The position numbers and the translations under genes were made by a program. Positions 9,188 to 37,177 of a stretch of 64,000 nucleotides of DNA are shown piece after piece. Position 1 is the stretch's first letter, and each line of letters starts with the position of its first letter. Below the pieces are notes generated by a model. The model was not told the DNA's origin. It saw only the letters and a list, made by a program, of their open reading frames with translations, and did no database searches. This DNA is from Branchiostoma floridae. Lineage: Eukaryota > Chordata > Leptocardii > Amphioxiformes > Branchiostomatidae. The stretch spans positions 23,721,932 to 23,785,931 of the forward strand of contig NC_049980.1 in NCBI RefSeq assembly GCF_000003815.2, written 5' to 3'.

Positions 9188-9260
9188 ATGGCTTGCCTCT
9201 TACGAAAATGTTGGCTGTTAGCAGTCGTTCTCCTCCTCTCTCCATGGCTAGCGCAAGCAG
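9188..9260 (+). CDS. Exon 1: signal peptide
   Basis: The first exon encodes MACLLRKCWLLAVVLLLSPW followed by LAQA: a basic start, a hydrophobic core and a small-residue cleavage site, typical of a secretory signal. It ends AG|GTACGTG in phase 1 and joins the acceptor TTCTTGCAG before 10129. The ATG at 9188 was chosen because it gives an intact signal peptide and nothing upstream in frame adds domain sequence. Confidence 0.8.
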
Positions 9261-12200
9261 GTACGTGTGTCGCTGGTGTATAATACTAGTACTACCTGGA
9301 TCAATATCACTACAGTGCATTTACGTATTGTTATCAGTCATTAATGACTTTGGCTGCTATGAATTGTTATTCAACAGAAGATGGTTTCAAATGAGGTACA
9401 CTACTAGGTCCAAGAATTACATCTGTGAATAGTTTAATCAGGTTGACAAGTCACTGGATACCGAAGTTCTAGTACAAAATGTAATTTGTACACAACAATG
9501 TGTTTTTGCCTAACTGTCACCTTGCTCAATAATGACTGGCTCGGCCACGTTTGGGACCTAATTCTACGTCACGCTGCAGCAGCGACACCTAGCTACAATG
9601 AGACGTAGAAACAGTCATTGAGGAAGTGGAGTCACTAAAGCTAAGGGCACAACCCGTCGTACGTGCAATTTGTCCGTGCGTTTTTTTTTTTTTTTTTTTT
9701 TTTGTGGCACGTATTTCTGAAAACGTTCAGGCTGTACAAGGCAGGTGCGTCGCCCGTACTGGCACGTACGGGGGGCGAATCCGCAGCCCGATGGCACACA
9801 AAGTTTTCAACGGTGCCTGCACGTGAAGTTCTACGGCGTGTCTGTGTGTTCCAAAAGCCGTTGTATTCCCTACAAGTTCGTACGGAGGCGGTACCTACCA
9901 CTTACGGATCCCAAAAGATTGCCCACGTTTTGCACGAAGACAGCACGTATTTGCATGCACGGCGGGTTGTCCCCTTAGCTAAAACGCGTGATCTGCTGAG
10001 ATGTGCATTCTCATCTTTCGTTAACCACGTTGTGTTTGCACCTCTTTGTTTGGACGTATCTACTAATAAATCTAGTACACGATTAGAATGAAAACATCTT
10101 ATTCCAATATACATCGTGCTTCTTGCAGAAGAATTGAGCTTGGCAGCCAGTCTTGGCCTCGACCCAAACACGGTGATACTTGACCCCTTCAATCTAGAGC
10201 CGGAGGTTAGGCTGCCGTGTAGCTCACCAAGAGAAGCGCCGATCACTTACAGTTGGAGAAAGGATGGTCAACCGTTAGATCTGGTGAGGACATCCACTAT
10301 TTCTTTCTGTTTACAGTGGTTTACATAAAGTCATCATGATATGTTATATCATATACATCAAGGAGTTTCAACCTCCTTGTATACATGGACCAAACGCTGT
10401 AATCTCCACACTTTTTAAAACTTAGTCTGCAGTTACTTCCATGAAGAGTTTGTAGCTTTTATCATTATGCAACGAAAAACGAAGTTTCATTACAGTGGTA
10501 TGTACCAAAGTGCTGTATTTTGTCATAGAAAAAAAATAATATCAGAGGCAATAAAAATGATGACGTCATCAATTTGCCCCCCAAAAATCAGATTTAGAAT
10601 TCTTTAATGCCCATCTATCAACATTCGTTACGGCTCCATTCGTTCTTAATTCATTGATAAGAAAACAGTGGAAGGTCAAAATGCCAATTTAGCCAACCGA
10701 GATACCTTAAACGTGTATGAGGTGTGGCACTCAACCACGGGACATGAGGCTTTATGTCCCATTCAAGAGGTGGTCGCTAACCAAAGCTACTCATATGTGC
10801 CTGCGTAGAATGAGCAAGTACGGACAAAGTGCCTTTCCGAAGGGCACATTACATTTAGGGCCTGCTAGGGGCGTTACTAAATTCTTAGTTATCTTTTGTA
10901 ACAGAATTCTCGACAACCACCATACCAGATGGATGCCGGTGAATTGATCATCAGGTTCCCAGAGAAGAGCAAAGATGAAGGATTTTATGAGTGTGTGGCA
11001 TCAAACGCTCATGGCGTGGTTATCGCCAGGCATGCTAATTTGACATTTGCTTGTGAGTCAAACTTTATTTATTTACATTATGATGCCATTGTTCTCAGTT
11101 TCTGGATCTTATGTGACCGTGTGTGATGGTACTTGGAGGCAAAATAACGAACTACCAATGGGGTGCAGAACTCTTTCGCTCATGCAGTGCTACTGAAGGT
11201 GTGACCGGTTTTCAACTTGTTTTTTTTGGCGACGCCTCAGGGGCGAGCCTAATGTTTATAGTGTGCGACCGTTTGACAGGAATTCTAGGAATTCCGCAGG
11301 CATGCGAGGAATTTTTCTACGGGTATTTTTTTCTACGGGTATTTTCTACGGGTATTCCCTAGGGAATTTGTTTTTGTGTGTAACTTTAGTCTGCTTTGGG
11401 TATGGCGTATAATAAGATGACGTGACCGATGTTATAAACCAGGATTTCATGTTTTAATACTCGTTTCACCATCAAGTATACAGCACATTACATTTTTAAA
11501 CAAAATACCCGATATTATGTATCGTTAGGGTAGAATTGTGGGTCAGTTATATTTTTTGCTTGACCATTCGGCGTAATGATGTCGTGTATGTATGAGGATT
11601 GTTTTGTTTCGTTTGAAGGTTTTTATTTCATATCTTTCTGTTATTTCATTTTGTATGGTTGTGTGACGCTTGAATCCCTTTTTTTCTTATTGCTGTGATG
11701 TTCATTTGGTTACCAAACCATCGCGACAAAGGGGTGTACTTGTCAGTCGATTCTTCCTGTAACCTGGGGGTTGTCATGCCGGCGTTCACCTGTGGGGACA
11801 GATTGTGAGAAAGGATTGATAGTATTTTTTTCTGTTAGTTACAGGCCGTCGGTAGTGATGTAAGGCATCAAAGTAATTTAGATATAATTTATAGCAAAAG
11901 TCATACATATTGAATTACAGCGCTTATATTGTCATGTCAAGTCAAAGTCCTTCCCGCTCCATGGTGCATAGGGCGGCGCCCATGTTCTTGGAGTAACCCT
12001 GGGCCAAACAAATGCAATTACTACAGTAGGGGGCCAGGACACTGGCTGTGGTGTGTGTTCAAATTACATACTCTTTCCCGAATGCTGAGTGCTAAGCTGA
12101 GAAATTAGCACGACCATTTAACACGTCATACTATATTGGCCGGGGATCGAACTTACGACGTACCGAATGCATGGCGAAGACTTTTCCCACTCGTCTCATT

Positions 12201-21200: not shown

Positions 21201-24200
21201 GAAGAATTTCTTGGTAACGCTTAACGGTGAATTCGGGATAACAAATAACGATTAACGTTGAATTAAAACGACCAATAACGCTTCACGAAGAATATACCGA
21301 TAACGTTTAACGGTGAATTAGAGCAGGTCGGTAACGATTAACGGTGAATTAAAATGGCTCATAACGCTTAACGGAAAAAGGCATGCAGACCCTCATTACT
21401 AGAACAGAACCACTCACACTCACAGAACAGAGCAGAACCACCGCGACGATAATCACGCTCATGCAAATGCATGACATGTCTCTTTCTCCCTACATAACTT
21501 TAAACTAAGATGCCCCATCTCATGTTTTCCCTGTAGCGCCCAGCGTCCGTTAAGGGCCCCGGCCACCCAACTCACCAAGCGGCAAGCTTATACAAATCAT
21601 CACATTCATCACACAATACGGCTAAGTAAAAGGAAGGCATACATGACATCTATACACCAGATATTTCTAAATACAATCCAAATCATATGAGTGACCAACT
21701 TACCTCCCCTTTTGTCAGTTGTTTTGTAACAAAAGATAATGTGCTGCATAGTTATTCTGCCATAGACGCACGGCAAAAGCCACCACGTAGGTCACATGGG
21801 AGGGCACCCCGTGGTCGGCATGGGCCCGACGAACACGTGTCCCGGCGGAAGAGGCGGTACCCTCCAGATTGACGTAAACCCGACCTCACTACCCTTCCGG
21901 GACACCAAAACGTTCATCGCTGGGTCACTGCACCAAAACGTGGACGTATGGGAAAAACTAGCAAAATTCTTGGGACAAGGGCCTGGAAGTCCTTGTTTGG
22001 ATAAAGAATAAAGTTCAGGATAAGAAATTCTTCGCCCCGCGTTTGAGGGTAGCTTTAGAGGGCAGACGTAAAAGTCGGAACAGGTCATCGACCCGAATTG
22101 CCACCGAAGTGACAAGTACACCGAGTAGCACGGAACAAAACTAAGTCGGTATGAACAGTGGCTTCTGCATCATAATCAAGTCCTACTCTCGCGGAGACTA
22201 TTCCAAAGTTGGAAGTCCCCGATGAAGGAGTGTCCGTTTGCGTTTTAATCACAGCTGGCACGTTTAAAGATCCACGAAACGCCAAATCTTTGACCCGTAT
22301 TTCAACGGAACCGAGAAGTTTTTACCCGCAAGCACCAAACTACCGTAACTTGGTTGTATCTGCCTGTATGTCACAGAAGGTCGTTCAGCTCTTGATCTTT
22401 AAGCAGATGTTATAGAATGGCTTATTCATACACCTATGTCAACATTGCGGCGTTGGCCAGATACCTTGCTTCCTTGGAACCGATGACATAAAATGGATTA
22501 CCCGAAACCCAACACTTATCTGGCCAGGCGCAGATTATTGCACAATATCAATGTAACATGTAGCATGCTTGAAATAAACTTTCTAATTTCAACTTTGTTA
22601 ATTGTTTTGATATTTCTCTATGGTAATATTTAACTTGTGCGAGGTTATATGCATCTTACAAACGAGACGTTTAAATAATGCCGTAATTGCGCGCGCGTTC
22701 AGCTAAGGTTGTCGTTTGTCTAAAGTACAAATCTGCGGTGGAATTTTGCGGTCCCCCTGTAATTAGAATCTATAACATTGCAAATTACACTAATTGGGTA
22801 ACGTTATATTTCATTGCTGCATATGATCTGAGCATTTCCACACCGCAATGGACCATGTTACAAAGCGACATCCTTCCTGTTGGCCATGATCACCTTGGCG
22901 TACAGCCATGTGTACCTTTGGTCCGCTCAGAGAAGTCGCTATGGACGTAACAGTACAACATAAAAGCTCATATGATAATGGGGTTCACTCACACGCACAG
23001 ACATAAGATTGTAGGGACTAATACGTTTTGCATTCCTTTTATGCGCGTATCTATATCGATGTACTTAAGGTGTACAGAAAAAGCACATACCTCAATGTTG
23101 CAGTTGTTTCCAAAATCTTGGTATTTGTTGTCATCGGCAAATTACAGACGGTTTCACATGAACATTGTGATAGATTACAACAGACCGCATCTATGTATTT
23201 GATTCTACACAGGTGACAATATGTTCACTTTAATAATACAGACCTTGCTACCAATCCATATACAACACCATCTAAACCACACCATTAACAACATCATACT
23301 ACACAGCACATCAAGGACAACGTGACGCGACACTACGACACTAGCACATACAGCCCGGAACATGACCATGACTTATCAAGCATACAATTCCTCAATCATC
23401 TCTATCAAGATACCACATACATGTATAACAAAGACAAACGATATTACCGTCGCCATGGCAATGCTTTTTCATTGCCACGCTTTTTCAGATTCAGACCCAT
23501 TTGACCCGGCTCCACGGCCATCTGTATCTGGGAGTCAAGGCGAAGGTGCGGTGCTCCAATGCCAGAAACCAGTATCATTTCCAGGTACTTCACTACCTTC
23601 ATGAGTTCCTTTTTGGGCTCCTGGGTTAAAGTTGTGCTTTCTACCAACCTACAAACCTATCTTGCTAACCAACCTCATATTATCAAAGTCACTAACAGAT
23701 GAGGTGCAAGTAAACCAGTATTCCTGTAACAGTTGTGTATCATTCATCTTATCAATTCTCTCATAAAAATCTTTTATAAATTGCCTGATGTTATTTCAAA
23801 TTTCTTTGTCAATTTGAATACTCTTTCTAGTCCGTCCTCTCTTCCAAGCGTATCAAACACCCAGAAGACACCAATTGGAAGAATAACCCTGTGCTTACTG
23901 TGCCAGCAGTTACAGCATTTTGTTGTCCACACATCTCCAGGCCTTATTTTCTTCTGGGTGGAATCAGGCTCGCTGGCCCCAGCCTTCGCAAGTACCGACC
24001 AGCGAGTGTATGCGTCCATAAGGACAGGGGATTTGTACTTCGCCCGTGCAGAACCAAACGATTCGGAAGACTACCAATGTCTGGTGCGACTGGCTTTAGG
24101 CGAGAAGTCTCCCTTACAACACCTGAGCCCAACAGTCTCATTCTCGGTTACAGCTCAAAGTACGTAATGACTTCCAGAGATCCAGGGTGTCGATGCCTCA

Positions 24201-27200
24201 TGGTTGAGTTTGCAAAATTATCTGCATCTTGCTGCAGATTTTTATACGGAAACACATCTATTGTTTTTCGTTGTCATAAACCTCTTTTAAGACCTGACAA
24301 TTTTCAATTTGACTAATATATATATTTTAACCTCCTTGCTAATACTAAATATAATAGTAGATTGTAGCAGTTTCCTTTCTGTATATCAGCAGAGGAATGA
24401 ACTAAACTTATGCACGACCATTTACTAAATCGAGGTGTTCTTTATCTTCAGCCCCACCTCAATCGGCTCCCTTCTTGGTTCTTAACGAGGGAAACTCCAT
24501 TTCGTCCATGGCCCATGCCACCGTCCTGATGGAGGGTTTCGCCTATGGGAAGTGAGTCGACATTTCCTCACAATCCCATTTTTATAGCTGCACTGGCTGT
24601 TCTACATACTTGTACTACAACTGAAAGTGACATTTAGCCCTCAAAACAAATATCATTGTAACAGTTGTTTTTCCAGTTACCCAATCGACCTTAGCAAAAA
24701 CCTGCAGACCCTTGAGTCTTTTTGCTTTCCAACATGTTCTTCTCATTTTTCAAAGTGATAAGAATTGTAAAATGACCCACAAAACATATGTAGGGCCCTT
24801 TGATATGTTACATAATATCAAGCTTGCACCTATAGAATATGATGTTGGCAATACCAGTGTCCTGCTGCATTTCAGTTTTACACAATTAAACTGTAATTGT
24901 TGGATCACTTTGCTCAAAATCTGAATAAATGCAAATCCCTACTTACCGACCCTGAGTTTTTAGGACCGTATAAATCAGAAAGAAATTAATTTTCAGTCCT
25001 TACCAATATTGATAAATATACCTGGCATCTACATGAGTATAATGCGTATACCATTGGTAAATGACATTAATAACAGTATTACATTATTTTTATTAATCAC
25101 AAAGATTTCATTAAAAAAAAGTATGTTTTCATGTTGCTTTTCCTTACATCACCCCCATTACTTACCACCCACCCTGTTCAAATATGCCACAAGCCTGTAT
25201 TCTCATCGATCCTGTTCCATCGTAGCCCCATACCGACCTTGTCGTGGCGGCGTGTGGATGCACAAGGCAATGTAGTTGCTATGCCGCCGGCCGCTAGACT
25301 GACAATGGAAAACTTCAACAGAGCTTTGACCATCACTGATATCGAGGAGGCAGACGCAGGCTTCTATGAGGTCACCGCTACCAACAGTTTGGGGACACGA
25401 TCACAGAGAACTCAACTCATTGTCAATAGTAAGACATTACACACCCTATGTGGATTTCCTACTACTGCCACATAATGACTATATGATTATGATCAATCAA
25501 TTTAATTTTTTTTTCAAATACAAAATGTAACAATCTGTTTCTTTCGTAATTGGCTGTTCCGTGTAACATTTTATCACAGGATAGTAACCAATCTTATTGT
25601 TCCTTCCCGGTTATTTTAGAGAAAAATGGAGAAGCGACAGGGCAATTTGTTTTTTAATTAGAAAAAGTCTTGAGGAAAGAGAAGGTTTACGTAACATAAA
25701 CAACATGGCACGTATCATGCAATGAACCCCTTCCTTTTATCTTTCCGAATGTTCAGTAGTGACTTTAGTAACCATCTAGCTAGTCGCTTGTTGCTTCTTG
25801 TTAAAAAGTATGATAACAAAATGTGTAAAGCCCTAAACATCACTGTTCACATCATTCCAATATCATCGCTACCCTTAGTCACTACAGTGGTCTAAAAAGA
25901 ATGGGACTTTTTTTACTCCCTACAGGAAGACCCGTGTTTTCAAAGGGTTTGTCCCATAACAACTACCACCTGCTTCTGGGGGAGACGGTGACGTGGGAAG
26001 TCGCCTGGGAGAGCTCAGGGGCTGTGGACGTCTTCTGGCTGCATAACACTATGGTTCGTAGTCTATACTTCAAAACAACACAATACTCACGTGAAATGAA
26101 CAAGAACGGGGAAATCATATAGCCTTCATAGAAACTAGACAGCAACATATGCAAGCCAATACAGCATACATGTATTTCAACCATTTCCCATCTCATGCAA
26201 AAATAGACTAATGTGTCCTTTGGGTAGATAAGTAATGCACACCTATGCCTTCTGAATCATCATCAGATTCTTTCCATCCCTATTCCTTGGATTGTGATCG
26301 TGGCAAACGAAGCCAAATTTCTTGACAGGAGAAGAAACATCAGGAAAGGGAAGATTTTTCAGATTTCAGATTGAAATATAATCAGGAAAAAGAGTTATTT
26401 TAACCCACACCTGTGGTACGGTTGAAACATAGATATTGCAAACAAGTAACAGAATTCAGTGTCGCAGAATCAAGGCATAGATCTATAAGATTGTTCAAAA
26501 TCTTCTATTAATTTTCATGAGTAATTTCATCGGGTTGTTAAATCATGTGACATTTAATCATTATAGTCCAATCTTCTTCTTACCAATGGAACTGACAGTA
26601 GAAGGACTAGGACAATCAAAACTTTGTCAGGTAAAAATAAGAACTTTGTTGTATACACGAAACTCCAGTATCATCGCAACATGCAACCTCTCTCTGCTTT
26701 ATGTAGACACTGACAGAAGGAGGCAGGTACAGGATGACGGAAACGGGAAATACAGCGACACTTCAAATCCGCGACGTGACTCATGAAGATAGCGGCACCT
26801 ATCAGTGCACAATAACAAACATGTACGGCAGGAAAACAAGCACAAGCTTCGCAGAACTTCGCGCAGGAGGTAATAGTTTTGCATGGAAATAGATACAAGC
26901 TGACGATTAAAGCTGAGAGACTGACACAATCGGGATTTCAAAAACAGTACGTACTGTGAGAGCTAGACATATTAGCTTACTACTAATGAGGATGGTACCC
27001 ATAATCCATATACATGTGCAGCCCCCAAACACAGTTCATATATCATCATTACAATGATGATATATGAACAATGGGGGTTAACCTAAAAAAAGGTTACAAG
27101 CTAATGTGTCCTCTCAAAAGGGTCCAATTATAATTTTCATAACATAAATACAAGCGATCGCGATGATGTCACGGTGACGCAGTGGTAGGCAAAAGCAGGT

Positions 27201-30200
27201 GTTTGGCAAAAGCTTGATTTACATATTAACCAGTAATTTGATCTGCTAATTTGAATATTAATTCTTAATCCAATCTTTTGACGTTCTGGTAGGCATCAAC
27301 CGCCCAATACCCCGGATATAAACAACAACAGTGATCCCTCGTATGAAAGCACGTGGACGGCCTGTAGTTAGAAATGCTCAACAAGAACAAATTGAGCCAT
27401 GGTACTTTAGCAACCAAACCAGACAGGTTATTGGGTTACCTGAAGGAATTCAGTACTAAGTCTTCATTCTCAACAGCTCTATGGTACTTGGAAAACCTTG
27501 GACTGATTACATGTGTGACTATTTTATTCTGAATGACTATTTTATTCTTTCCAGCTCCATCCTATGTGAGACACATTAGACTGACAGAAAGTGGGAGCAA
27601 TTACGCTGTGCTAAGCTGGGTCGTACCCCAAGGCTTTGACAGCGATGACATAGGCGGGTATCAGGTGCGGGCCATACCAAAGAGTGGAGGAGACACAAGG
27701 ACCATTGATGTTGGTTCTACGGAGACAACAGCACGGATTGATGGTTTGAATGGTGTCTCCGGTGGTTACACATACCAGGTAAGACAAACTGTTTAAAATG
27801 TCATAAACAATTCCACCAATGAGATGAATTGAGGTGACTGCATATATTATGTTGGGGGGATTTGAGAGAGAATTCAGAATAAAAGGCAGATTAGAATGAT
27901 GATTTTGTTTTCTTCTAGCTAGTGTGGTATGCCACAAATATGTCTGATTCTACATTACCGCTATAGGGTAAGCTGGCTTATATGGATTATAAGGGAAGGA
28001 GAAGCAGCTTCCTCAAGAATAGTTTGGGCCCTCTCTTGTGCAAAGAGGCAGCAGATATAAGCCTGTCAATCTTCTTCCAGCTTTTTATCTTTTTTTTAGA
28101 TGATAACTCATTCTGACATCTTTTTTTCTGCCCAGGTCCGTGCAAAGAATGATAAAGGCACATGGGGTCCATGGACAACATTTGGAGGTAACAGTTTTGC
28201 ATGGAAATAGATACAAGCTGACGATTAAAGCTGAGAGATTGATACAATCAGGATTTCAAAAACACCTACTAGTACTAGTACGTAGTGTGAGACCTTGTGT
28301 AAACTCTAACTACAGACATGGATGGTACCCATATATACATGTGCAACCCCCAAAACACAATTCATTTATCATCACTACAGTGGAAATTAACCTAGTTAAT
28401 GTGTTCTCTAGTTCCAATCATAATTTTTCATGACATAAATCAAAGCACGTGGACAAAGTAAGTTGAAAATGCTCAACAAGAACAATGAGCCATGGTTACT
28501 TAAGGGCAACCAAAGACAGGTTATCTAGTTGCATGAAGGAACGCCTCATTCTCTCCAGCTCCATCGTATATGGAAAATCTTAGACTGATAAATTACAGAG
28601 GATCGATGTACACTTGTGTGGGCTATCAGGGTTTGATAGACCCGAATGACTATTTAATTCTTTCCAGCTCCATCCTATGTGAGAAACATGAGACTGACAG
28701 AAAGTGGGGACGGTTACGCTGTGCTAGGCTGGGACGTACCCCAAGACTTTGACAGTAGTACAATAGGCGGGTATCAGGCGCAGGCCACCCGGAAGAGTGG
28801 AGGAGACACAAAGACCATTGATGTTGGTCCTGGGGAGACAACAGCTCGTGTTGATGGGTTGAATGGCAACTCAGATGGTTACACATACCGGGTACGAAAA
28901 AAACTGTCGACTGTTTAAAACAGTTTCAAAAACAATTTCACCTGAATGAGATGAAACGCCGAGATGAAAGCATACATTATGTTGGAGGCCGATTTGAGGG
29001 AGAATAAAAGGCGGATTAGAATGAGGATTTTTCTTTCATCTAGCTAGTGTGGTATGCCAGAAATATGTCTGATTTTTACATTACCGCTACAGGGTTAAGC
29101 TAGATGGGCTCTCTACTGTGCAAACAGGCTGCAGATATAAGCCTGTCGATTTTCTTCCAGCTTTTAGTCTGTTTTTTTTTTTACAAATGATAACTGACAT
29201 TCTAACATCTTTTGTTCTACCCAGGTTCGTGCAAAGAATGATGAAGGTGCATGGGGTCCATGGACAAAATTTGGAGAGGACCGTGGCGGATCTGGTGTCA
29301 GAACTACAGGATCCACCAACACTCTGCTGGCCTGGCTACTCCCACTGCTATTTGTGCTCCTGCTGTTGCTGATCCTACTGGTTAGATTATTACCTCCATG
29401 AAATGTCATGGAGGTTATATTTACCTCCATGAAATGTCATGGAGGTTATATTTTACCCTGTGTTTGTCTGTGTGTCTGTGTGTCTGTCTGTCTGTGTGTA
29501 AACAAGATAACTCAAGAACGGCTAAATGGATTGTTTTCATACTTGGTGTGTTGGTGGGGTGTGATGAAAGCTGGAAATGATTAGATTTTGGGCCCCCTAG
29601 CGGCTCCCCTTGGTACTGCAACGCAACTTCCGGTTTTGCCATCTCGGTGTTCTGAACATGCTATGGTCACGATTTTTGAGTATTAGATAGCTCTTGTGCT
29701 CAGAAAGAAATGACATAAGTTTGGGCCCCCTAGCGTCTAGTTTTGGGATAGCAGGGGCATTTTTGTCAAAAACTTCTGAAGAGGATAACTCAAGAAGGGA
29801 ACAGAGGGTTTTCATGATTTTTGGTATGTAGGTACCTTAGACAACGTTGTACAAGATGAAATACTAATTATGCAAAATAGGAGTACATTTGCATAATTAA
29901 TGAGAATATTCTATCATAGCAGTTTTTTCAATGTATCTCTTGTTCCCAACATGCTATGGTCTTGACATTTAGGCGGTAGATAGCTTTTTGTGTCATGACG
30001 AAGTGGAGTAAGTTTTAGCCCCCTAACATTTAATTTGGGAACTGCAGGGGCGTTTTTGTCAAGACATTCCAAAGTGGATAACTGCAGAAAGGATTGACAG
30101 ATTGGCATCATATTAGGCATGCGGGTACCTTAGACAAAGATGTTCATAATGATATACATGTTATGCAAATGAGGACTTAATTTGCATAATTAATGAGGAA

Positions 30201-32004
30201 ATTGTATAATTCCATTGTTTTCAATAACTGGACTTCAATAAATGTAACACATGTTAATTATGATAGGTGGAGTATAAGCAGATACCAAATATGGTAATGA
30301 GGAGCTTATTTGCATAATTTATGTAAAAATTGCAAAACCGCTTTATGATTAATAATGGGAAGTTTATAATTGTGACATGGGTACGTTAGTCAATGATGAA
30401 CAACACCATGCATAAATTATGTCTGTGTGTTAGTCAATTTCATTAAATTTAGGAAAGCTCTAAATTTTCATGGAGGTATGAGGTCGCCGAACTCTAGTTT
30501 ACCCTGTGTTTGTCTGTGTGTCTGTGTGTAAACAAAATAACTCAAGAACGGCTTGGTGGATTGGTTTCATACTTGGTGTGTTGGTAGGGTGTGATGAAAG
30601 CTGGAAATGATTAGATTTTGGTCCCCCTAGCGGCTTCCCTTGGTACTGCAGCGCAACTTCCGGGTTTTCTATCTCGTGTTCTGAGCAAGCTATGGTCACG
30701 ATTTTGAAGTTTTAGATAGCTCTTGTGCTCAGAAATAAGTGACATAAGTTTGGGCCCCCTAGCGTCTAGTTTTGGGAAAGCAGGGGCATTTTTGTCAAAA
30801 ACTTCTGAAGACGATAGCTCAAGAAGGGAACAACGGATTTTCATCATTTTTGGTATGTAGGTACCTTAGACAATGTTTTACAAGATAAGATACTAATTAT
30901 GCAAAACAGGAGTACATTTACATAATTAATGATAATATTCTATCATAGCATTTTTTTCAATGTATCTCTTGTTCCAGACATGCTATGGTCTTGATATTTT
31001 GGTGGTAGATAGCTTTTGGTGTCATGAAACATTGGAGCAAGTTTCAGCCCCCTAACATTTAATTGTGGAACTGCATGGGTGTTTTTGTCAAGACACTCCA
31101 AAGAGGATAACTGCAGAAAGAAACAATGGATTGCCTGCATTTTAGGCATGCGGGTAGCTTAGGCAAAGATGTTCATAATGATATACATGTTATGCAAATG
31201 AGGACTTAATTTGCATAATTAATGAGGAAATTGTATAGTTCCATTGTTGTCAATAACTGGACCTCAATACATGTAACACATGTTAATTACGATAGGTGGA
31301 ATATAAGCAGATACCAAATATGGTAATGAGGAACTTATTTGCATAATTTATGTAAAAATTGCAAAACCGCTTTATGATTAATAATGGGAATTTTATAACT
31401 GTGACATGTGTACGTTAGTCAATGATGAACAACACCATGCATAAATTATGTTAATGTGTTAGTCAATTGCCTGAAAGTTACGAAAGCTCTAAATTTTCAT
31501 GGAGGTATGAGGTCGCCGAACTCTAGTTTCTTCATGCATTTGCAAGTGTAACCTATTAAGTATATGTAACAGTGGGATGTTGTAAAATGGTTTATCAAGA
31601 CCTTAATGGGGGATACTGTCTGACATATGCACTTCCAGACAGATGTAGGAGAAATGTAAAAGAATCTTGATAGACAGCCCTGACCAAGTGGCAGATACAT
31701 GTATACTGCTCAGTTACTTGTCTCTCTCTCTTTGCTTGTTTGCCAATGTATGTAATTGTGCAGTCATGTAATCAATGCCAAGTCATGTAATTAATGCAGC
31801 TTACTAGCTGCCAAATTTCAAGGTTTTGGATACTTACTGTCGTTGATCACCCAGTGTTGTTGCTGCTGCCTATGGCTGGGGTTGTGTGGAAAATACTGCC
31901 CCTGCTGCACCTGTTGGACAAGGTGTTTTGGAGGACGTGGTACCGGTAAATCAAAACCAGGACCTGGATATATCGGACCAGCAGGTGACCTTAGTAAAAA
32001 TTAA
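9188..32004 (+). CDS. Ig(4)-FN3(2) transmembrane adhesion/receptor protein, L1/neurofascin/contactin-like
   Basis: Fourteen exons: 9188-9260, 10129-10283, 10905-11052, 23489-23584, 23941-24159, 24452-24551, 25226-25428, 25926-26053, 26707-26869, 27555-27778, 28136-28187, 28668-28891, 29225-29380, 31855-32004. They total 2091 nt (696 residues), with every junction phase matching. Order: signal peptide 1-24, Ig1 25-125, Ig2 126-230, Ig3 231-331, Ig4 332-428, FN3-1 429-520, FN3-2 521-615, transmembrane helix about 623-647, 49-residue tail. Each Ig or FN3 domain is split over two exons, as in L1-family and contactin genes; Ig2 carries a GDLYFARAEPNDSEDYQC stretch resembling neurofascin/L1 Ig2. 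Known relatives act in cell-cell adhesion at the plasma membrane. This one is shorter (canonical L1: six Ig, four to five FN3) and lacks an ankyrin-binding FIGQY tail. A splice-like TTTTCTAG sits one base before the ATG, so a non-coding 5' exon may exist. It may continue into the CARD exons downstream. Domain content is solid; orthology is not settled. Confidence 0.82.
9635..9985. mobile_element. MITE with AGCTAAGGGCACAACCCG inverted termini
   Basis: The left end AAAGCTAAGGGCACAACCCG and the right end CGGGTTGTCCCCTTAGCT are imperfect inverted copies of about 30 bp. The interior includes a homopolymer of 20-odd T (about 9680-9702) and words related to the termini. It lies in intron 1 of the Ig/FN3 gene. 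Several overlapping reading frames here are artefacts of the element. Confidence 0.65.
10129..11052 (+). CDS. Exons 2-3: Ig domain 1
   Basis: Exon 10129-10283 (acceptor TTGCAG, donor CTG|GTGAGG) and exon 10905-11052 (acceptor TAACAG, donor CTT|GTGAGT). The B-strand cysteine lies in RLPCSSP, the C-strand tryptophan in TYSWRKDGQ, and the F-strand motif is DEGFYECVASNAHG. This is a complete I-set Ig domain with its canonical disulphide pair, and it corresponds to the membrane-distal Ig of L1-type proteins. A 12.4-kb intron follows. Confidence 0.85.
11925..12235 (-). mobile_element. tRNA-derived SINE
   Basis: On the minus strand, GAGACGAGTGGG resembles a pol III A box and GTTCGATCCCC is a good B box about 45 bases further on. 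They are followed by an unrelated 200-bp body (CATGGGCGCCGCCCTATGCA, CCATGGAGCGGGAAGG). Spacing and orientation fit a tRNA-type SINE. It lies in intron 3 of the Ig/FN3 gene. Confidence 0.55.
12236..14949. other. Intron 3 sequence without recognised genes
   Basis: Several short minus-strand frames at 12658-13245 overlap one another in different frames and show no domain. Apart from the CRE/CCAAT cluster nothing structured was seen. Confidence 0.45.
13715..13800. promoter_or_regulatory. CRE flanked by two CCAAT motifs
   Basis: ATTGG (13721-13725), the palindromic CRE TGACGTCA (13772-13779) and CCAAT (13789-13793) fall within 75 bp in an intron. This may be a cryptic promoter or enhancer, but such short words also occur by chance. 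Confidence 0.2.
14950..15400 (+). mobile_element. LINE 3' fragment, frameshifted
   Basis: Frame 14956-15222 carries CNHCNAKPVEDEIHFIANC, the same zinc-binding tail as the copy at 1006. A second frame from about 15219 carries LLTSHNPLIIEEVGYFVFLC, which in the other copy lies in one frame, so a single-base frameshift has occurred. It is a dead, 5'-truncated copy in intron 3 of the Ig/FN3 gene. Confidence 0.6.
15559..17626 (-). pseudogene. Two-exon GC-rich coding remnant, frame-disrupted; function unknown
   Basis: Exon I runs 17626 to 17066 and exon II 15765 to 15559, with donor GAG|GTTAGT and acceptor CTCTTTAG|GAG in phase 0. Exon I opens with MQQTLHVGSLRVANW and contains LLDVVKAVRGEAPLLEEAIL and SLSDDELAERLETL, then stops. 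A -1 frame opens exactly at ATGA (17342-17345) and reads LKAHETIVRLAHFLIMAAND and QAVANLLDPTDEPP. The original frame returns near 17180 with LPPPAKKAKPAPLEEDSSSG and SESDIE. Exon II reads ENSLQRELDKAKEACLDPLV, later RVGAKRSVVERYKNLANFVL, ending NMW. Its codon use is far more GC-rich than the surrounding intron. Net frame change is zero, so two compensating indels, assembly errors or a frameshifting transposon ORF are all possible. It lies antisense inside intron 3 of the Ig/FN3 gene. No family was recognised. Confidence 0.5.
16547..16900. repeat. Minisatellite, about six units of 58-70 bp
   Basis: Units begin TG(C/T)GGGGAGATA(C/T)AAC followed by CAACCCGCC(T/C)GTC and a T-rich spacer, at about 16547, 16602, 16664, 16722, 16782 and 16853. 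One unit has a 10-base internal duplication. It lies inside the intron of the antisense remnant 15559-17626. Confidence 0.75.
17976..18056. mobile_element. Small foldback element, TAGCCTGGATACCA termini
   Basis: The left arm TAGCCTGGATACCATACCCC and right arm GGGGTTTGGATACCAGGCTA are near-perfect inverted copies around a 30-base centre containing TTGAGATCGGGC. The same arms recur, separated by an insertion, at 55130 and 57250, and once more at 57360. Confidence 0.65.
18057..19189. other. Intron 3 sequence without recognised features
   Basis: Contains a GCCCGGTCGGTCGGCGGAAA stretch near 18133-18160 with a short internal duplication. No frame or element could be supported. Confidence 0.45.
19190..19597. 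mobile_element. Second AGCTAAGGGCACAACCCG element, left end duplicated
   Basis: The left terminus occurs twice, at about 19192 and 19259, each followed by TGCAACTGCGTGGTGTCTAC. The inverted right terminus CGGCGGGTTGTGCCCCTTGC lies at about 19568-19590. It is the same family as the element at 9635. Confidence 0.65.
20124..21399. mobile_element. Non-autonomous DNA transposon with subterminal repeat arrays
   Basis: Terminal inverted repeats TGAGGGTCTGCATG (20128-20141) and CATGCAGACCCTCA (21382-21395) are perfect and flanked by the 4-bp duplication TTAC. Just inside the left end there are three, and inside the right end about six, same-orientation copies of GGTAACGCTTAACGGTGAATT. The middle has about four diverged 190-bp units, each with a GCGCC-AAGGCGC palindrome or relic, a GGGGAAAATTT run and an AACGCCATTTCCTGCATTTT-like segment. 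No transposase frame is present. Confidence 0.75.
21780..22130 (+). mobile_element. Possible DIRS/YR-type retroelement polyprotein fragment
   Basis: Frame 21796-22011 contains NPTSLPFRDTKTFIAGSL and NVDVWEKLAKFLGQGP; a shifted frame continues WIKNKVQDKKFFAPRLR. The series recalls the segment just before the reverse transcriptase in DIRS-like polyproteins that are common in invertebrate genomes. This is recognition by eye, from weak similarity; the fragment is short, frameshifted and ends before any catalytic motif. Confidence 0.35.
22131..23488. other. End of intron 3, no recognised genes
   Basis: AT-rich sequence leading to the Ig2 acceptor TTTTTCAG. Short frames lack Ig or other domain motifs, so no Ig exon appears to be missed here. 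Confidence 0.5.
23489..24159 (+). CDS. Exons 4-5: Ig domain 2
   Basis: Exons 23489-23584 and 23941-24159. The B-strand cysteine is in AVLQCQKPVSFP, the C-strand in LIFFWVES, and the F-strand in DSEDYQCLVRL. The E-strand GDLYFARAEP is the closest visible match to L1/neurofascin Ig2, where a GDLYF motif is common. Phases 1/1 join Ig1 to Ig2 across the long intron, supporting one gene despite the 12-kb separation. Confidence 0.85.
24452..25428 (+). CDS. Exons 6-7: Ig domain 3 without canonical cysteines
   Basis: Exons 24452-24551 and 25226-25428. The tryptophan core (PIPTLSWRRVD) and the E-F region (LTITDIEEADAGFYEVTATN) are clear. The position of the F-strand cysteine is valine (FYEV), and the B-strand HATVLMEGFAYG has no cysteine either. 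Both halves of the disulphide are lost together, which suggests a tolerated, stabilised fold rather than random decay. Splice sites are good (TCGTAG acceptor, AATA|GTAAGA donor). Confidence 0.82.
25926..26869 (+). CDS. Exons 8-9: Ig domain 4
   Basis: Exons 25926-26053 and 26707-26869. Exon 8 gives LLLGETVTWEVAWESSG and VDVFWLHNT; exon 9 gives ATLQIRDVTHEDSGTYQCTI. The F-strand cysteine is present, but the B-strand position (TWEVAW) is not cysteine, leaving an unpaired thiol. The domain ends with AELRAG before the first FN3 domain. Confidence 0.82.
27555..28187 (+). CDS. Exons 10-11: fibronectin type III domain 1
   Basis: Exons 27555-27778 and 28136-28187. FN3 landmarks are the B-strand tryptophan in AVLSWVVPQGF, the C-strand GGYQVRAIPKSG, the loop ARIDGLNGVSGGYTYQ and the G-strand region VRAKNDKGTWGPWTTFG. 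The WGPW motif resembles a WSxWS-like box. The exon pair is duplicated almost unchanged immediately downstream. Confidence 0.85.
28551..28640 (+). pseudogene. Decayed extra copy of an FN3 first exon
   Basis: CTCTCCAG|CTCCATCGTATATGG followed by AAAATCTTAGACTGATA resembles the start of the two FN3 first exons (CTCCATCCTATGTGAGA...). The frame hits TGA/TAA quickly and the rest of the domain is missing. It looks like a leftover from the tandem duplication that made FN3-2. Confidence 0.5.
28668..29380 (+). CDS. Exons 12-13: FN3 domain 2 and transmembrane helix
   Basis: Exons 28668-28891 and 29225-29380. FN3-2 (AVLGWDVPQDF, GGYQAQATRKSG, ARVDGLNGNSDGYTYR, VRAKNDEGAWGPWTKFG) differs from FN3-1 by only scattered substitutions. 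After a short stalk (EDRGGSGVRTTGS) comes LLAWLLPLLFVLLLLLILL, a single-pass membrane helix. The donor CTG|GTTAGA is weak and lies about ten bases before a repeat element. If unspliced, the frame ends at TGA (29399-29401) inside that repeat, giving a receptor almost without a tail. Confidence 0.83.
29389..31530 (+). mobile_element. Tandemly duplicated repeat element in the last Ig/FN3 intron
   Basis: The element starts with two adjacent copies of the ACCTCCATG...CATGGAGGT hairpin. A 1.03-kb unit (GATAACTCAAGAACGGC, TGGTGTGTTGGTGGGG, GGGCCCCCTAGCG, ATTTGCATAATTAATGAG) follows and is repeated from about 30500 to 31530. Each unit ends TTTTCATGGAGGTATGAGGT then CGCCGAACTCTAGTTT. The terminal CTAGT is Helitron-like, but no matching subterminal hairpin was confirmed. 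Confidence 0.65.
29399..29401 (+). other. Alternative stop codon for an unspliced receptor isoform
   Basis: If the weak donor after exon 13 is not used, the frame adds VRLLPP and stops at this TGA, which is part of the ACCTCCATGAAATG repeat terminus. The product would be a membrane protein with a six-residue cytoplasmic end. Confidence 0.4.
31855..32004 (+). CDS. Exon 14: cysteine-rich juxtamembrane tail
   Basis: The acceptor GATCACCCAG opens a phase-0 exon matching exon 13. It encodes CCCCCLWLGLC, then GKYCPCCTCWTRCF, then a Gly/Pro/basic stretch (GTGKSKPGPGYIGPAG) and a stop at 32002-32004. Eleven cysteines in the first 24 residues directly after a membrane helix suggest multiple palmitoylation. 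An internal donor CAG|GTGACC after 31984 (phase 1) would instead link to the CARD exon at 32484 in frame. A second frame is also open here but fits neither neighbouring exon phase. The exon is inferred from phase, composition and splice signals only. Confidence 0.6.
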   Translation, partial: CCCCCLWLGLCGKYCPCCTCWTRCFGGRGTGKSKPGPGYIGPAGDLSKN

Positions 32005-32483
32005 ACCTTAGTAACTTAAGTGCTAACGACAAAATGGTAGTCATGCTTCATCTTAACTTGAAAGTTCATCTGTGCTGGTGGAAGACATTCTGGATAAAGT
32101 TGAACAGTGTGACTGATCAACTCCAGTCTTTGTCAAGGAATGGACGTGTAAATATAGCCTGGTAAACATGTAATTGTGATATGTGATGTTTTGGGATCTT
32201 GTTATTCAAAGAAGAAAGAAAGAAGAAGTTTTTGCTTTGTGATGTGCCTTTTCTTTTTGTGGCGTTAGGAGAAATTTTTAGCTGAATATAACATGTGTAA
32301 TCCATTTCACATCAAGCTGAAATCAATTCCAGTATTCAGAGAACAGTTACTTACTATTCAATGGATTGAGATATCTAAAGAAATCTGTAAATAGAAATTC
32401 CGATACATGTATCATGCTCATACTCTACAAAAATGTATGTGTGTCTGGTATCTTAAACCCACTTTGAGACCTTTCTCCCGCAG
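31985..32483 (+). other. Candidate intron linking the Ig/FN3 gene to the CARD exons
   Basis: The stretch starts GTGACC after CAG and ends with the pyrimidine-rich acceptor CTTTCTCCCGCAG. Joining 31984 to 32484 completes a codon (G plus AC) and then reads the CARD ATG and onward with no stop. If used, the two plus-strand models become one 1141-residue protein. If not, this stretch contains the 3' UTR of one gene and the promoter or 5' UTR intron of the next. No clear AATAAA or TATA box was seen in it. Confidence 0.45.
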
Positions 32484-32485
32484 AC

Positions 32486-33125
32486 ATGGATAAACACCAC
32501 CGAGAGATGCTGAAATTGTACCGACCTGACGCTGTTAAACACGTGAAACGTCCTGACCGGGTAGCTATGCACCTGTCCTCCACAAACGCACTTCCGGACA
32601 GCGTGATCAAGAACATCACCAAGTAAGACCTGCATTTCATATGTTTGTAAAATTAGAGTCAGGGGAGTGAAGGGTAGACAATGGGTCATTCCTCACAGGC
32701 TTGTTACTAATCTATAGTCATTCTGGCATACATGTTGATTTATGATCAACTTGTTAGATAAACTCAAATTCTCATAATTGACCTCTCAGAACAGTTGCTT
32801 CTTTATATATCTACAGTGATGGTACAATTCTTCTTATCTTCCCTCCCTTTCCTCTTTCAACAACTTTCCCATCAAAAGAAACCAGCATTTGCTATAATTG
32901 CTACTACATGTACCATTTCACAATGAGCAGTGAACCTACTGGCATTATTGGATTCTATTGGTCCCACTTGATGCCTGTGTTTCAGTCAGCATACCCAAGA
33001 CGGGTATAACAGGAAGATTGTGGACAGCCTGACAATGTATGGAGATAATGAGGCCTTCAATGGATACTGCACTGCACTGAGGAAGGATAAGCTGTACTGG
33101 CTGGCAGACACCTTGGAAGGGCGAG
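32486..33125 (+). CDS. CARD1 exons
   Basis: Exons 32486-32622 and 32986-33125 join in phase 2. Helix-like blocks: HHREMLKLYRPDAVKHV, RVAMHLSSTNALPDSVIKNI, RKIVDSLTMYGDNEAFNGYC and ALRKDKLYWLADTLEG. Spacing and the final ALR-LxWLAD-LEG pattern match CARDs. It is clearly diverged from CARD2 and CARD3. Confidence 0.75.
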
Positions 33126-36100
33126 GTTAGTACAATCTTTTAAAAAATTAGTCAAAATGTAATGCAAGTGGTCCTATAATCCTAACAGGCACATTTTGTA
33201 TCAAATTAACTTATCTTCTTCAGACTGGAAATGGAATATGTCACTTGCTTTTCAGATTTATGAGTAACTGAGTTCATTTCAAGATTTTGAATTGCCAAGG
33301 TATTTTAATAGTTTGTCAACTACACATCAATGATTGTAATGTTCTGAACTCTACATTTACCTTCTTCTTATTCTTACGATACTGGACAAAACCCTGCATG
33401 TGGCATTATGTCCAGGACTTACTTATGGTCAGAGGCCTTACCCAAGTGTGGCCTGAAACTAGATGATCATAACTAAATTGGCCTTTTAAGTTTGAATTTG
33501 AGGTAATAAAAAAAAAGAACCTTTCTATCTTTAGGACTGTCTGTGTACCGCCGGGAGCAGCTGATGCAGCATCAGTCTGTCCTGGTGGAGAGGATGGACC
33601 CTGACATAACACTGGCCCATCTCTCCAAACGGAAGGTAATCAAATATTAAATGTTTCAAAAGTAAATTGACATCTGAAATATTATCACCAGGCAGTATCA
33701 TTCAATTTGATAAATACTATTCCTACTGTTCAGGATCTTTAAAGCAAAGGGAGCTAGACAATTCCAACGTCTTCCTAATAATTGGAAATAAAAAGGGTGG
33801 GCTCTAGAGCTGATGCAGAAGATGATACAAGGCAATTAATTATCAGTTGTCCAAAAACCAAATAAATAGAATATTTTGGCTTGCATTGACCACATTCAAT
33901 TGTAGCAGTTTTCCAACTGCTAACATTCCTGTACGAAAATTAAAGGATTTGTCTAATGTACTGACCAGGTGTTCACCAGTGCCATGACTGAGTATGTAGC
34001 GAGTGCACACTCTCGCGAAGAGCAGAACAGACGCATCATCCATCTGCTACAGTCTCGTAATGACGATGAATTCTCCGTGTTCCTCGATGCTCTCCGACAG
34101 AATCAAAGCCAGGCTCACCTTGTGGAACCTTTTAGTATGTATTGCATATCTGAATCTCTTACAGTTAACATTTATACTTTCATTGTGTGGTCAGGTCCTT
34201 GCTACATTGTATGTATCACTAACAGTAAGTTAAATTTATCATTTGTAAAGGGTAAGGAAACCTACAGCTCTATAATTGGTTCTTTCCAGTCACATTAACA
34301 AAGTCATAAAAGCTCAAAGTCAAGTTGTTGATAATCAGAGGAATGTCACAGAGAGGGAAAGAGTTGCTCAGGAGAACTTTAATAAACCGTTGAGGGTGCT
34401 GTTACATGTCTTGCGCTCATCTTACGATTTTAATACCGTAGGATTGTTAAGCAGGCTGCAACCAATCATTGACAAGGATCTAAGACATTGTTGTAGGTAC
34501 CAAGCAGCTAATCTTTGCAGGACACATGTATGGCTGTCAAAAAATGTTCCAAGTTATCCAATCGCACGATGATCGCATGACAAACGTGACCGTGACCTAA
34601 ACCTCCTTACCTTGGCTAATAAATGTAAGAAAATGCCAATACTAATCATAACAAGAAAGACATGGAATTTTGTGACCTTTCACCTATATCATACTACATG
34701 TCTTATGGTCCTCAGGATACAGCCTTGATAGATTAAGATTCTATAATGGTAGACAATACTAACAACCAGTTAATGTGTTCTTCCCTCAAGTTCTGTCGGG
34801 CCAGAAGAAGCAGCAGTCACAGGTGCAATGGAACGGTGTTGGCAAGAAGACAATCTCAACAGTGTCGACAGGTCAGTCCTGTATGTTTTAGGCCCTGAGA
34901 TACATCTGCACATTGCATCAATTAAATGCATAGGCAGTAAGGACTGTCTTGCTACTGGTGACCTGGTTGAGTGTGGCTTTAAATGTGAGGTGTGAGTGTA
35001 GAATAGGTTTACATGCATAAAATCATGACAGTTACTGAAACTTGGAAAGGTGAAATCTTCCAATCCACTACACTTGCTAAAAGTCAGGTAAGACAATGTC
35101 AGATGCCTACCAGTAGTAATACTGTAGCTATTGTCAGCATTTGTATCATTTATACCCATCTACATGTTGAAAGATTTTCTTGCTCTACATCATTTCTAAC
35201 CATGTACTGCCCCAACAGGTGAGAAGGAGGCCTTCATCAGCCAGCAAAGTAAGCAAACAACCGTAAACGGGGGTCTGTATTTCACTGACGACACTTCTGG
35301 AATGGTCAATGGACAAGGTGTGTCCATTACTTTTCTAGGTGGACTACATATATGTTGCCGAAAGGGTCACAATAAGAATAGTCTGTTCTTTCACTGTTCC
35401 CTTAATTAATTTGTGACTGGAGGGTAACCTCCGTCGACAAAGTATTGTGAACCGTTTTTGCGTTGAGTGTTCGTACCAATATCTCTATGTTCCATTTGCA
35501 GCAATCGTATGTGGTTTGGCATGTCTGTATTCCATTGCGCGATGATGCGCGTTCCTTTCTTTTCGCGGTAGCTGTTTGTATAATCGATGTAGCAATTTTT
35601 TTTGCTTGAATGCCCTTGTAAGGAAATGATATTAACTCTACATCTACCTGACTTTTAAGCTTGAATTTGGAGTAATAAAGAAATTGAACCTCTGTACCTT
35701 TAGTAGTGAGGCTGTCTGTGTACCGACGGGAGCAGCTGATGCAGCATCAGTCCATCCTGGTGGAGAGGATGGACCCTGACATAACACTGGCCCATCTCTC
35801 CAAACGGAAGGTAAGCAAATAAATGTTTCAAAAGTAAATTGAATTCTCATCTGAAGGATTATCACCAACTTATCATTCAAGTTGATAAATTTCATTCCTA
35901 CAGTCCAGCATCTTTAGAACAAATTCCAACATCTTCCTAGTAGCGAGCGAGCGTGACCTCTGTGAAGGTGTGGCATAAGTGTGTTTGGTTGACTTGAGGC
36001 TGTCTACACCATTTACCCTTGCTATTGAAAAGTTAACTTAATAAGAATATCTAAGCTTGCGTTGACCACATTCATTTGTTGCAGTTTTCCAACTTAAACA

Positions 36101-37177
36101 TTCCTGTACAAAAATAAAAAGATTTGTCTAATGTACTGACCAGGTGTTCACCAGTGCCATGACTGAGTATGTAGCGAGTGCACACTCTCGCGAGGAGAAG
36201 AACAGACGCATCATCCATCTGCTACAGTCTCGTAATGACGATCAATTCTCAGTGTTCCTTGACGCTCTCCGACAGAATCAAAGCCAGGCTCACCTTGTGG
36301 AGCTTTTTAGTGCGTATTGCTTTATTTTCTTGAATCTTGTTTTTATCTTGTCAATTGCCTACCAGTAATACTGTAACTATTATCAGCATTTTTAACATTT
36401 CTATTTTAATCTTGAGAGATTTTCTTGCTCTACATCACTTCTAACCATGTACTGACCCAACAGATGAGAGAGAGATCTTCATCAACCAGCAAAGTAAGCA
36501 AACAACCATAAACAAGGGTCTGTTCTTCAGTGACGCTTCCATCAAGTCAGGTGCTTCTGCAATGGTTCAGATTGGACAACCAGTTATCCTGGAGGTCAAT
36601 GGAGAAGGTGTGTCCATTGCTTTCTAGGTGGACTTTGTTGCTGAAAGAGTCATACATCATACAAAAAATAGTCTGTTCTAGATCTTTTAACTTTTTTTCA
36701 TTTTGACTTGAGCGACCATTTAACAAATGGAGGAAAATGCATGTGTTGTGATAAAGTGTCATTACATGGCCATTTGTGTTTTGGGCATGGTATTCTACTA
36801 TTGATTAGTTTCATTGGTGATATTGTGGTGACGAATGAATCTGTTACAGCACAGGGTAGTCCAAACTACATCACATGATCCTCAATTAAAGCTTTGCCAA
36901 AAGGCAATACAGCTAATGCTGTGCTAAGGGCTATGTTTCAAAATACTTTCTTGTTCTTTTTCAAGTTGATGATGCCCGTTGGTTGCTGAATGATGGACCC
37001 CTGCCTCAAAACAAAGGCATCCACGTCCGTACGTCCGGTCGGACCCAAGAGCTGAAGATAGATGCCATGACCCCTGACCTGGCAGGCACCTACACCTGCC
37101 AAGGTACCACACCAGAAGGCGCCAAGCTGTCATGTGATATCAACATCACGTCTATGGAATCCCAAATGACACTGTAA
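32486..37177 (+). CDS. Triple-CARD plus Ig-domain protein (possibly the cytoplasmic part of the upstream receptor)
   Basis: Exons: 32486-32622, 32986-33125, 33535-33635, 33969-34134, 34791-34871, 35219-35317, 35704-35810, 36144-36309, 36464-36607, 36966-37177. They give 1353 nt (450 residues) with all phases consistent. Order: CARD1 1-92, CARD2 93-181, linker 182-241, CARD3 242-332, spacer, Ig about 360-445. CARDs are six-helix death-fold modules that assemble apoptosis and innate-immune signalling complexes by homotypic contact. CARD2 and CARD3 are near copies made by a local exon duplication. A strong acceptor sits two bases before the ATG, so an upstream exon must exist: either a 5' UTR exon or the receptor's tail exon, which joins in frame. 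No caspase, kinase, NACHT or helicase domain is visible. Domain calls are firm; whether it is a separate gene is open. Confidence 0.78.
33535..34134 (+). CDS. CARD2 exons
   Basis: Exons 33535-33635 and 33969-34134. Key blocks: YRREQLMQHQSVLVERMDPD, ITLAHLSKRKVFTSAMTEYV, REEQNRRIIHLLQSRNDDEF and SVFLDALRQNQSQAHLVE. The HLLQSR ... FLDALRQxxQ pattern is a textbook CARD helix 4 to helix 6 signature. Confidence 0.85.
34791..35317 (+). CDS. Linker exons between CARD2 and CARD3
   Basis: Exon 34791-34871 (ILSGQKKQQSQVQWNG, basic and glutamine-rich) and exon 35219-35317 (GEKEAFISQQSKQTTVNGG) are both phase 1 at each end, so either could be skipped without breaking the frame. The second is a shortened relative of exon 36464-36607: it keeps ISQQSKQTTVN but lacks the VQIGQPVILE strand that starts the Ig domain. 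Confidence 0.55.
35704..36309 (+). CDS. CARD3 exons, recent copy of CARD2
   Basis: Exons 35704-35810 and 36144-36309. The first differs from its CARD2 counterpart mainly at the 5' end, where the acceptor context gives VVR before LSVYRREQ, and by one V-to-I change. The second differs at about three residues (EEKNRR, DDQFS, LVELF). Flanking intron sequence is also similar, pointing to duplication of a genomic block. The frame stays open through both copies. Confidence 0.78.
36464..37177 (+). CDS. C-terminal Ig (I-set-like) domain exons
   Basis: Exon 36464-36607 supplies a spacer (NEREIFINQQSKQTTINKG) and strands A-B (VQIGQPVILEVNGE). Exon 36966-37177 supplies ARWLLNDGPLPQ (C-strand tryptophan), TQELKIDAMTPDLAGTYTC (E-F) and AKLSCDINIT (G). 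The B-strand cysteine is absent while the F-strand cysteine is kept, as often found in intracellular I-set domains. The TAA stop at 37175-37177 lies inside what looks like the left terminus of a MITE. Confidence 0.75.

Follow-up and report, generated by a model that had tools for sequence, protein, structure and literature searches.

The window analysed here is a 64,000-nucleotide stretch of the lancelet genome (G000:C2:23721932-23785931), whose plus strand carries a candidate receptor gene in which immunoglobulin (Ig) and fibronectin type III (FN3) domains are followed by a membrane span and a series of CARDs. A frame running from the ATG at 9188 to the TAA at 37177 comprises 1,140 residues and a stop, or 1,141 codons, in 24 exons joined as scored in-frame donor and acceptor pairs. 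In order, it would encode a signal peptide, four contactin-like Ig domains, two FN3 domains, a transmembrane (TM) helix, a Cys cluster, three CARDs and a single Ig domain. We consider it probable (roughly 0.85) that this is one gene for a type I membrane receptor, contactin-like on the outside, with a TM helix, a Cys segment and a three-CARD tail ending in an Ig domain. The join of the receptor to the CARDs is probably no artefact of gene prediction, because ten sister loci share the same membrane-to-tail arrangement. A single gene with this domain order had been proposed from the letters of this DNA (the original prediction), and it is now strongly backed by ten colinear loci and a conserved junction phase. 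The 1141-codon open series claimed there was recovered as the same frame; the exon count was not, since 23 exons had been claimed and 24 were used here.

Exon joins were chosen by a scored search of in-frame donor and acceptor pairs, except for three sites that were set by hand: the signal-peptide junction, for which the search yielded no pair; the CARD2 donor at 34134, placed by analogy with CARD3 (the top-scoring pair used 34251); and the CARD3 acceptor at 35707, which scored second to 35704. Splice scores were based on generic frequencies rather than on lancelet-trained ones. The exon at 34791-34871 is tentative, because it had no match at E ≤ 0.01 in the paralogous loci searched and the frame stays closed when it is left out.

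The outer part of the gene resembles the contactins in sequence. Ig1-4 matched contactin-2 in a PDB sequence search with an E value of 2e-52 over query residues 13-385 of 396, and the ten best matches (best 60 of 142 considered) were all contactins or axonin-1, ahead of titin, neurofascin and Robo. What the original prediction had called an adhesion-type receptor can therefore be described more sharply as contactin-like. Pfam recognised I-set domains and two fn3 stretches in this part, CARD2 and CARD3 above the curated cut-off, and I-set in the C-terminal part. The matches of the CARD part to the PDB were weak, the best (0.014) being to a designed protein, followed by CED-3, NOD1 and caspase-9. 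The Pfam matches in the parts scanned included no effector domain and no caspase-like domain, and NCBIfam gave nothing useful.

The C-terminal Ig domain matched generic Ig-superfamily proteins in the PDB. A kinship with MALT1 was considered and is unsupported, MALT1 being absent among the 51 PDB matches listed. The B-strand Cys is missing from this domain in the nine strands compared (one strand represents both L031 and L032, and none comes from L029), which would suit a cytosolic docking domain. However, the outer Ig3 and Ig4 likewise lack the full Cys pair, as judged by eye, and the loss therefore proves nothing about location.

The junction and its recurrence in paralogous loci

The Cys exon starts at 31855 (CACCCAG/TGTTGT) and ends at a donor after 31984 (CAGCAG/GTGACC), while the acceptor CTTTCTCCCGCAG/ACATGG opens the first CARD exon at 32484, with the ATG two bases in; phase 1 meets phase 1. 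The phase-1 donor and the acceptor with its two preceding bases are present where the original prediction had placed them, and the 31984-32484 join is in frame. With a score of 9.3, this join is the third-best among the 22 junctions scored (range -1.8 to 15.1). A second phase-1 donor follows 31945 (ACCG/GTAAAT) and scores 3.10, compared with 2.96 for 31984. By eye, the 31945 donor resembles that of L029 and the 31984 donor those of L027 and L028. Either may be the donor used, and both would keep the frame.

Junction sites in the family were first picked by eye, after which all candidates were scored: all GTs between a start string in the tail frame and the first stop, and all AGs within 60 nt upstream of the first-CARD Met. 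The start strings were chosen by the author; those of L034, L041/42 and L045 lie in a small separate tail exon placed by eye. The top-scoring donor was in phase 1 in 10 of 11 loci, and the top acceptor was in the matching phase, again in 10 of 11. Donors were offset from the start strings by 46 to 400 nt, and tail lengths vary widely. Eight loci have the expected acceptor 2 nt before the ATG. In the other three, L030, L031 and (as second choice) L032, it lies 9 nt further upstream, 11 nt from the ATG, and the phase is kept. Treating the loci as independent, the chance of at least 10 of 11 at one in three is about 1.3e-4 per side, a figure that overstates the strength of the result because paralogues are not independent. 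The original prediction had cautioned that a chance in-frame join would occur about one time in three; phase agreement that recurs to this extent on each side goes beyond chance.

The junction gap measured 182-512 nt in nine loci. AATAAA was present in three of these gaps and ATTAAA in four, both occurring in L031; given this distribution, polyadenylation signals in the gaps are neither for nor against a transcript end there.

When the genome (513,431,437 bases in 431 contigs) was searched for relatives, the family proved to comprise at least 11 loci, the window and ten others, on two chromosomes and both strands. A CARD probe gave ten matches at E 0.05, corresponding to nine loci (the window, which holds two copies, was counted twice), seven on C2 and two on C9. 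These nine are the set defined by E 0.05; 48 CARD matches were listed up to E 1, the weaker ones mostly outside the part that was read, and CARD-only relatives may be among them. A C-terminal Ig probe found its domain in all nine loci and gave 15 weaker matches on C18 and C9, three of which were examined: L041/42 and L045 on C9, and L040 on C18. L040 has Ig-like repeats among its listed open reading frames, and no CARD was recognised there. L041/42 has Ig-like and FN3-like exons, a TM helix, a run of five Cys, one CARD (Pfam 5.9e-10), a linker and an Ig domain; its second CARD-like exon pair had no Pfam match. L045 (C9:9062500-9071500, minus strand) has FN3-like exons, a TM helix, a Cys cluster and one CARD (Pfam 2.7e-8), then a long low-complexity linker and the C-terminal Ig domain (Pfam I-set 1.2e-6).

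TM helix, Cys-rich segment, one or more CARDs, linker and Ig domain follow in the same order on one strand in all 11 loci examined. The TM helix, Cys segment and linker were assigned partly by eye, and the assignments by eye include the TM helix of L034, the last Ig domain in both L028 and L029, and the point at which the linker of L029 begins. Ig and/or FN3 domains lie upstream of the TM helix in nine loci including the window, or eight of the ten sister loci, although L041/42 and L045 are counted here on partial matches below cut-off; the FN3 of L034 is clear (Pfam 2.1e-11), while no first half of FN3 was matched in L033. A contactin-type Ig2 probe gave six matches at E 0.01, five of them within or just upstream of examined family loci: three in the window, L027 and L029, and two preceding the examined pieces of L030 and L034 by about 2 kb and 5 kb on the same strand. 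The sixth, at C9:8967355, lies about 12 kb upstream of a C-terminal-Ig-like match outside the 11 loci. At this threshold, L028 and L033 were not reported.

The number of CARDs differs between loci: L033 and L045 each show one, the window has three, and about five CARD-like units were counted by eye in L034 (C9:9089000-9098500, minus strand). L031 and L032 (C2:23603000-23618000, minus strand) are tandem mini-versions with a TM helix, a Cys segment, two CARDs and an Ig domain. CARD homologues in a single open frame, whose match starts at a Met, are found in L035 (C6:490000-498000) and L036 (C215:172000-180000), and are possible relatives of a captured CARD. In the window itself, the CARD2 exons (33535-34134) recur at 35707-36309 with 97% and 95% amino-acid identity; a recent duplication within the gene probably gave the third CARD.

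Two comparisons of outer and inner parts speak for a single gene. Between the window and L027, the ratio of nonsynonymous to synonymous rates (dN/dS) was 0.44 for the outer part (six segments) and 0.38 for the CARDs, linker and Ig domain (six segments); it is quoted for this pair only, and the inner sums of the L028 pairs were not used, the L028 Ig exon being absent from the set. Identities of Ig3 and of the CARDs rise together (Spearman 0.67, p 0.035, for ten non-independent pairs of five loci), with the pair of L029 and L033 running opposite to the trend (43% for Ig3 and 63% for the CARD). The read-through tail was too short for a rate test, with 12 codons and one synonymous and three nonsynonymous changes. 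It was also considered as the true C terminus and rejected, because the stop positions differ between the close paralogues L027 and L028.

Alternative readings of the locus

Several observations weigh against a single receptor gene. The one-gene join is a prediction from genomic sequence, and both donors in the window are middling, at about 3 bits. L032 misses on both sides of the junction test, its expected donor and acceptor each ranking second. No Ig/FN3 ectodomain was found in L031 and L032, where a short ATG stub precedes the TM helix, and the upstream Ig/FN3 exons of L041/42 and L045 match Pfam partly, below cut-off, or not at all (among eight outer peptides, fn3 ranged from 0.0006 to 0.05, I-set reached 7e-5 and 0.012, and two had no match). 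CARD1 of the window had no Pfam match, and its assignment relies on the paralogues L029 (6.6e-8) and L031 (3.3e-5, just over the cut-off), with L027 falling below the cut-off. Finally, the Met of the first CARD is conserved, which would be needless for a purely internal residue.

The junction could be divided between two adjacent genes, one for an Ig/FN3 membrane protein whose short Cys-rich tail ends in GDLSKN and a stop, the other for a cytosolic protein of three CARDs and an Ig domain, with an intron in its 5' untranslated region. The in-frame stop after the donor, the ATG two bases past the acceptor and the single ATTAAA at 32000 would all suit such a division. However, the phase is as expected in 10 of 11 loci at the donor and in 10 of 11 at the acceptor, even where the acceptor is shifted upstream, and this argues against it, as do the variation of read-through tails and stops between paralogues and the presence of the TM and Cys part in all nine CARD-probe loci (the weaker CARD matches falling mostly outside this count). 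In a variant of this division, the locus would be operon-like, one pre-mRNA giving two mRNAs by trans-splicing at the acceptor before the CARD ATG. Downstream genes in trans-spliced operons follow a short gap and have an acceptor close to the ATG, and here the gap is short and the acceptor lies almost on the ATG. Against this, the highest-scoring donor of the tail frame is in phase in 10 of 11 loci, and to our knowledge spliced-leader trans-splicing has not been described in lancelets. We reject both as the principal explanation, since the order and the junction phase are seen again in the sister loci; two separate genes would be most improbable, and an operon scarcely credible.

The Met of the first CARD raises a subtler question. 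It opens the first CARD in all 11 loci (at 32486 in the window), including L033, which lacks the first CARD; there, an exon that encodes an internal CARD in other loci comes first, with GMS in place of GLS. This Met could be left over from an N-terminal CARD that was captured, or mark where a second, cytosolic product begins. If the latter, one locus would make two products, the full-length receptor and a soluble CARD-CARD-Ig protein made from an internal promoter or by initiation at Met 32486, acting as a positive or decoy partner. The single-exon CARD homologues on C6 and C215, which also match from the Met on, are consistent with this; yet a relic of capture would explain the same conservation, and one internal CARD exon of L034 begins with Met as well. 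A second product is thus a possibility to be taken seriously, but we do not favour it. Another suggestion concerns function, namely that the tail does not signal through death-fold partners and that the CARDs serve as a scaffold, as a negative regulator, or only in homotypic clustering during adhesion. The lack of an effector domain among the Pfam matches in the parts scanned and the variable number of CARDs are in line with this, but CARDs act as recruitment modules in described systems, and we regard a non-signalling tail as rather unlikely.

Proposed mechanism and relation to known systems

For the single receptor gene, we envisage an ectodomain that would bind a partner in trans, or a microbial or cell-surface ligand. 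Ligand or cell contact would cluster the receptor and gather its CARDs at the membrane, perhaps aided by S-acylation of the Cys cluster, and once clustered the CARDs could seed complexes with caspases that bear a CARD or with adaptors of the Bcl10 type. Such ligand-driven nucleation at the membrane is the likely mechanism. Passages of Zhang et al. (2008, PMC2575513) indicate that amphioxus caspases can carry CARD-type prodomains.

The closest likeness is to the contactins (CNTN1-6; axonin-1), with which the gene shares the nearly full-length alignment of Ig1-4 to contactin-2 and the Ig-then-FN3 layout; the C9 relatives have several FN3-like exons (by eye, with partial, below-cut-off Pfam matches). 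Contactins are GPI-anchored and have six Ig and four FN3 domains and no cytosolic part, whereas the window gene has four Ig and two FN3 domains outside, and a TM helix that leads in frame into a Cys cluster and CARDs. UNC5, p75NTR and Fas are also surface receptors with a death-fold domain in the tail, but that domain is a death domain (DD), not a CARD, and the ectodomains are different. Signals from surface receptors usually pass through TIR or death domains and adaptors before reaching the caspase or NF-kB machinery. If the present reading is correct, a contactin-like receptor with its own CARDs would link cell recognition directly to CARD assemblies, and would do so in a chordate whose shuffled immune genes are already known.

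Death-fold and Ig domains also occur together in the cytosol in MALT1/Bcl10 (the CBM complex, as presented in passages of PMC5978004), although the window gene has no caspase-like domain in the parts scanned with Pfam, and a CARD in place of the DD. Amphioxus hybrid immune genes, which include TNFR-caspase, LRR-caspase and TIR-NACHT combinations (Zhang et al. 2008, PMC2575513), come from the same animal group and show domain shuffling of a kind that shortens the signalling path. The main text of that paper does not contain the word immunoglobulin, and its passages drawn on here describe no Ig/FN3-CARD receptor. Titles and opening abstracts among the open-licence literature matches listed included no lancelet Ig/FN3 receptor with a CARD tail; an unpublished or uncurated gene model may already show the gene.

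We would give about even odds to a broader view, in which a lancelet multigene family of contactin-derived receptors is wired straight to CARD signalling, each locus perhaps making a soluble CARD-Ig regulator as well, and a neural-type recognition module now serves as an innate-immune or cell-death receptor that dispenses with TIR, TNFR and adaptor steps. The family would illustrate one way for an adhesion protein to acquire a death-fold tail, namely a phase-1 exon join, and with its many copies it offers a series of natural experiments on the junction and on gene loss.

Exon coordinates and other features of the window

Table 1. Exons of the candidate receptor gene and the intron at its junction, in window coordinates.
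Feature	Position	Strand	Remarks
Start codon and signal peptide MACLLRKCWLLAVVLLLSPWLAQA (by eye), exon 1	9188..9260	+	DNA conserved with L037/L038
Ig1, first half	10129..10283	+	
Ig1, second half	10905..11052	+	
Ig2, first half	23489..23584	+	
Ig2, second half	23941..24159	+	
Ig3, first half	24452..24551	+	
Ig3, second half	25226..25428	+	
Ig4, first half	25926..26053	+	weak donor, -0.8
Ig4, second half	26707..26869	+	
FN3-1, first part	27555..27778	+	
FN3-1, end	28136..28187	+	
FN3-2, first part	28668..28891	+	
FN3-2 end, stalk, TM helix LLAWLLPLLFVLLLLLILL (by eye)	29225..29380	+	
Juxtamembrane Cys cluster and tail	31855..31984	+	donor after 31984; alternative in-frame donor after 31945
Intron between receptor half and CARD half	31985..32483	+	499 nt; no AATAAA, one ATTAAA at 32000
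CARD1, first half	32484..32622	+	two bases, then ATG
CARD1, second half	32986..33125	+	
CARD2, first half	33535..33635	+	
CARD2, second half	33969..34134	+	donor hand-set
Linker exon, tentative	34791..34871	+	no match in paralogues searched
Linker, first copy	35219..35317	+	
CARD3, first half	35707..35810	+	near-identical copy of CARD2; acceptor hand-set
CARD3, second half	36144..36309	+	weak donor, -1.8
Linker and first strands of C-terminal Ig	36464..36607	+	
C-terminal Ig domain and stop codon	36966..37177	+	

The intron between the TM and Cys exons contains a repeat of about 1 kb present twice in tandem (29477-31268), with copies 92-93% alike and 300-nt sub-repeats. Two segments, at 946-1323 and 14929-15222, resemble the reverse-transcriptase zinc-binding parts of retroelements; Pfam matched only the former, below its cut-off. 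On the minus strand, a BRCT domain (Pfam 1e-7) lies beside a 424-residue open frame that had no Pfam match (45356-45655 and 46322-47596), perhaps a gene of the DNA-damage type.

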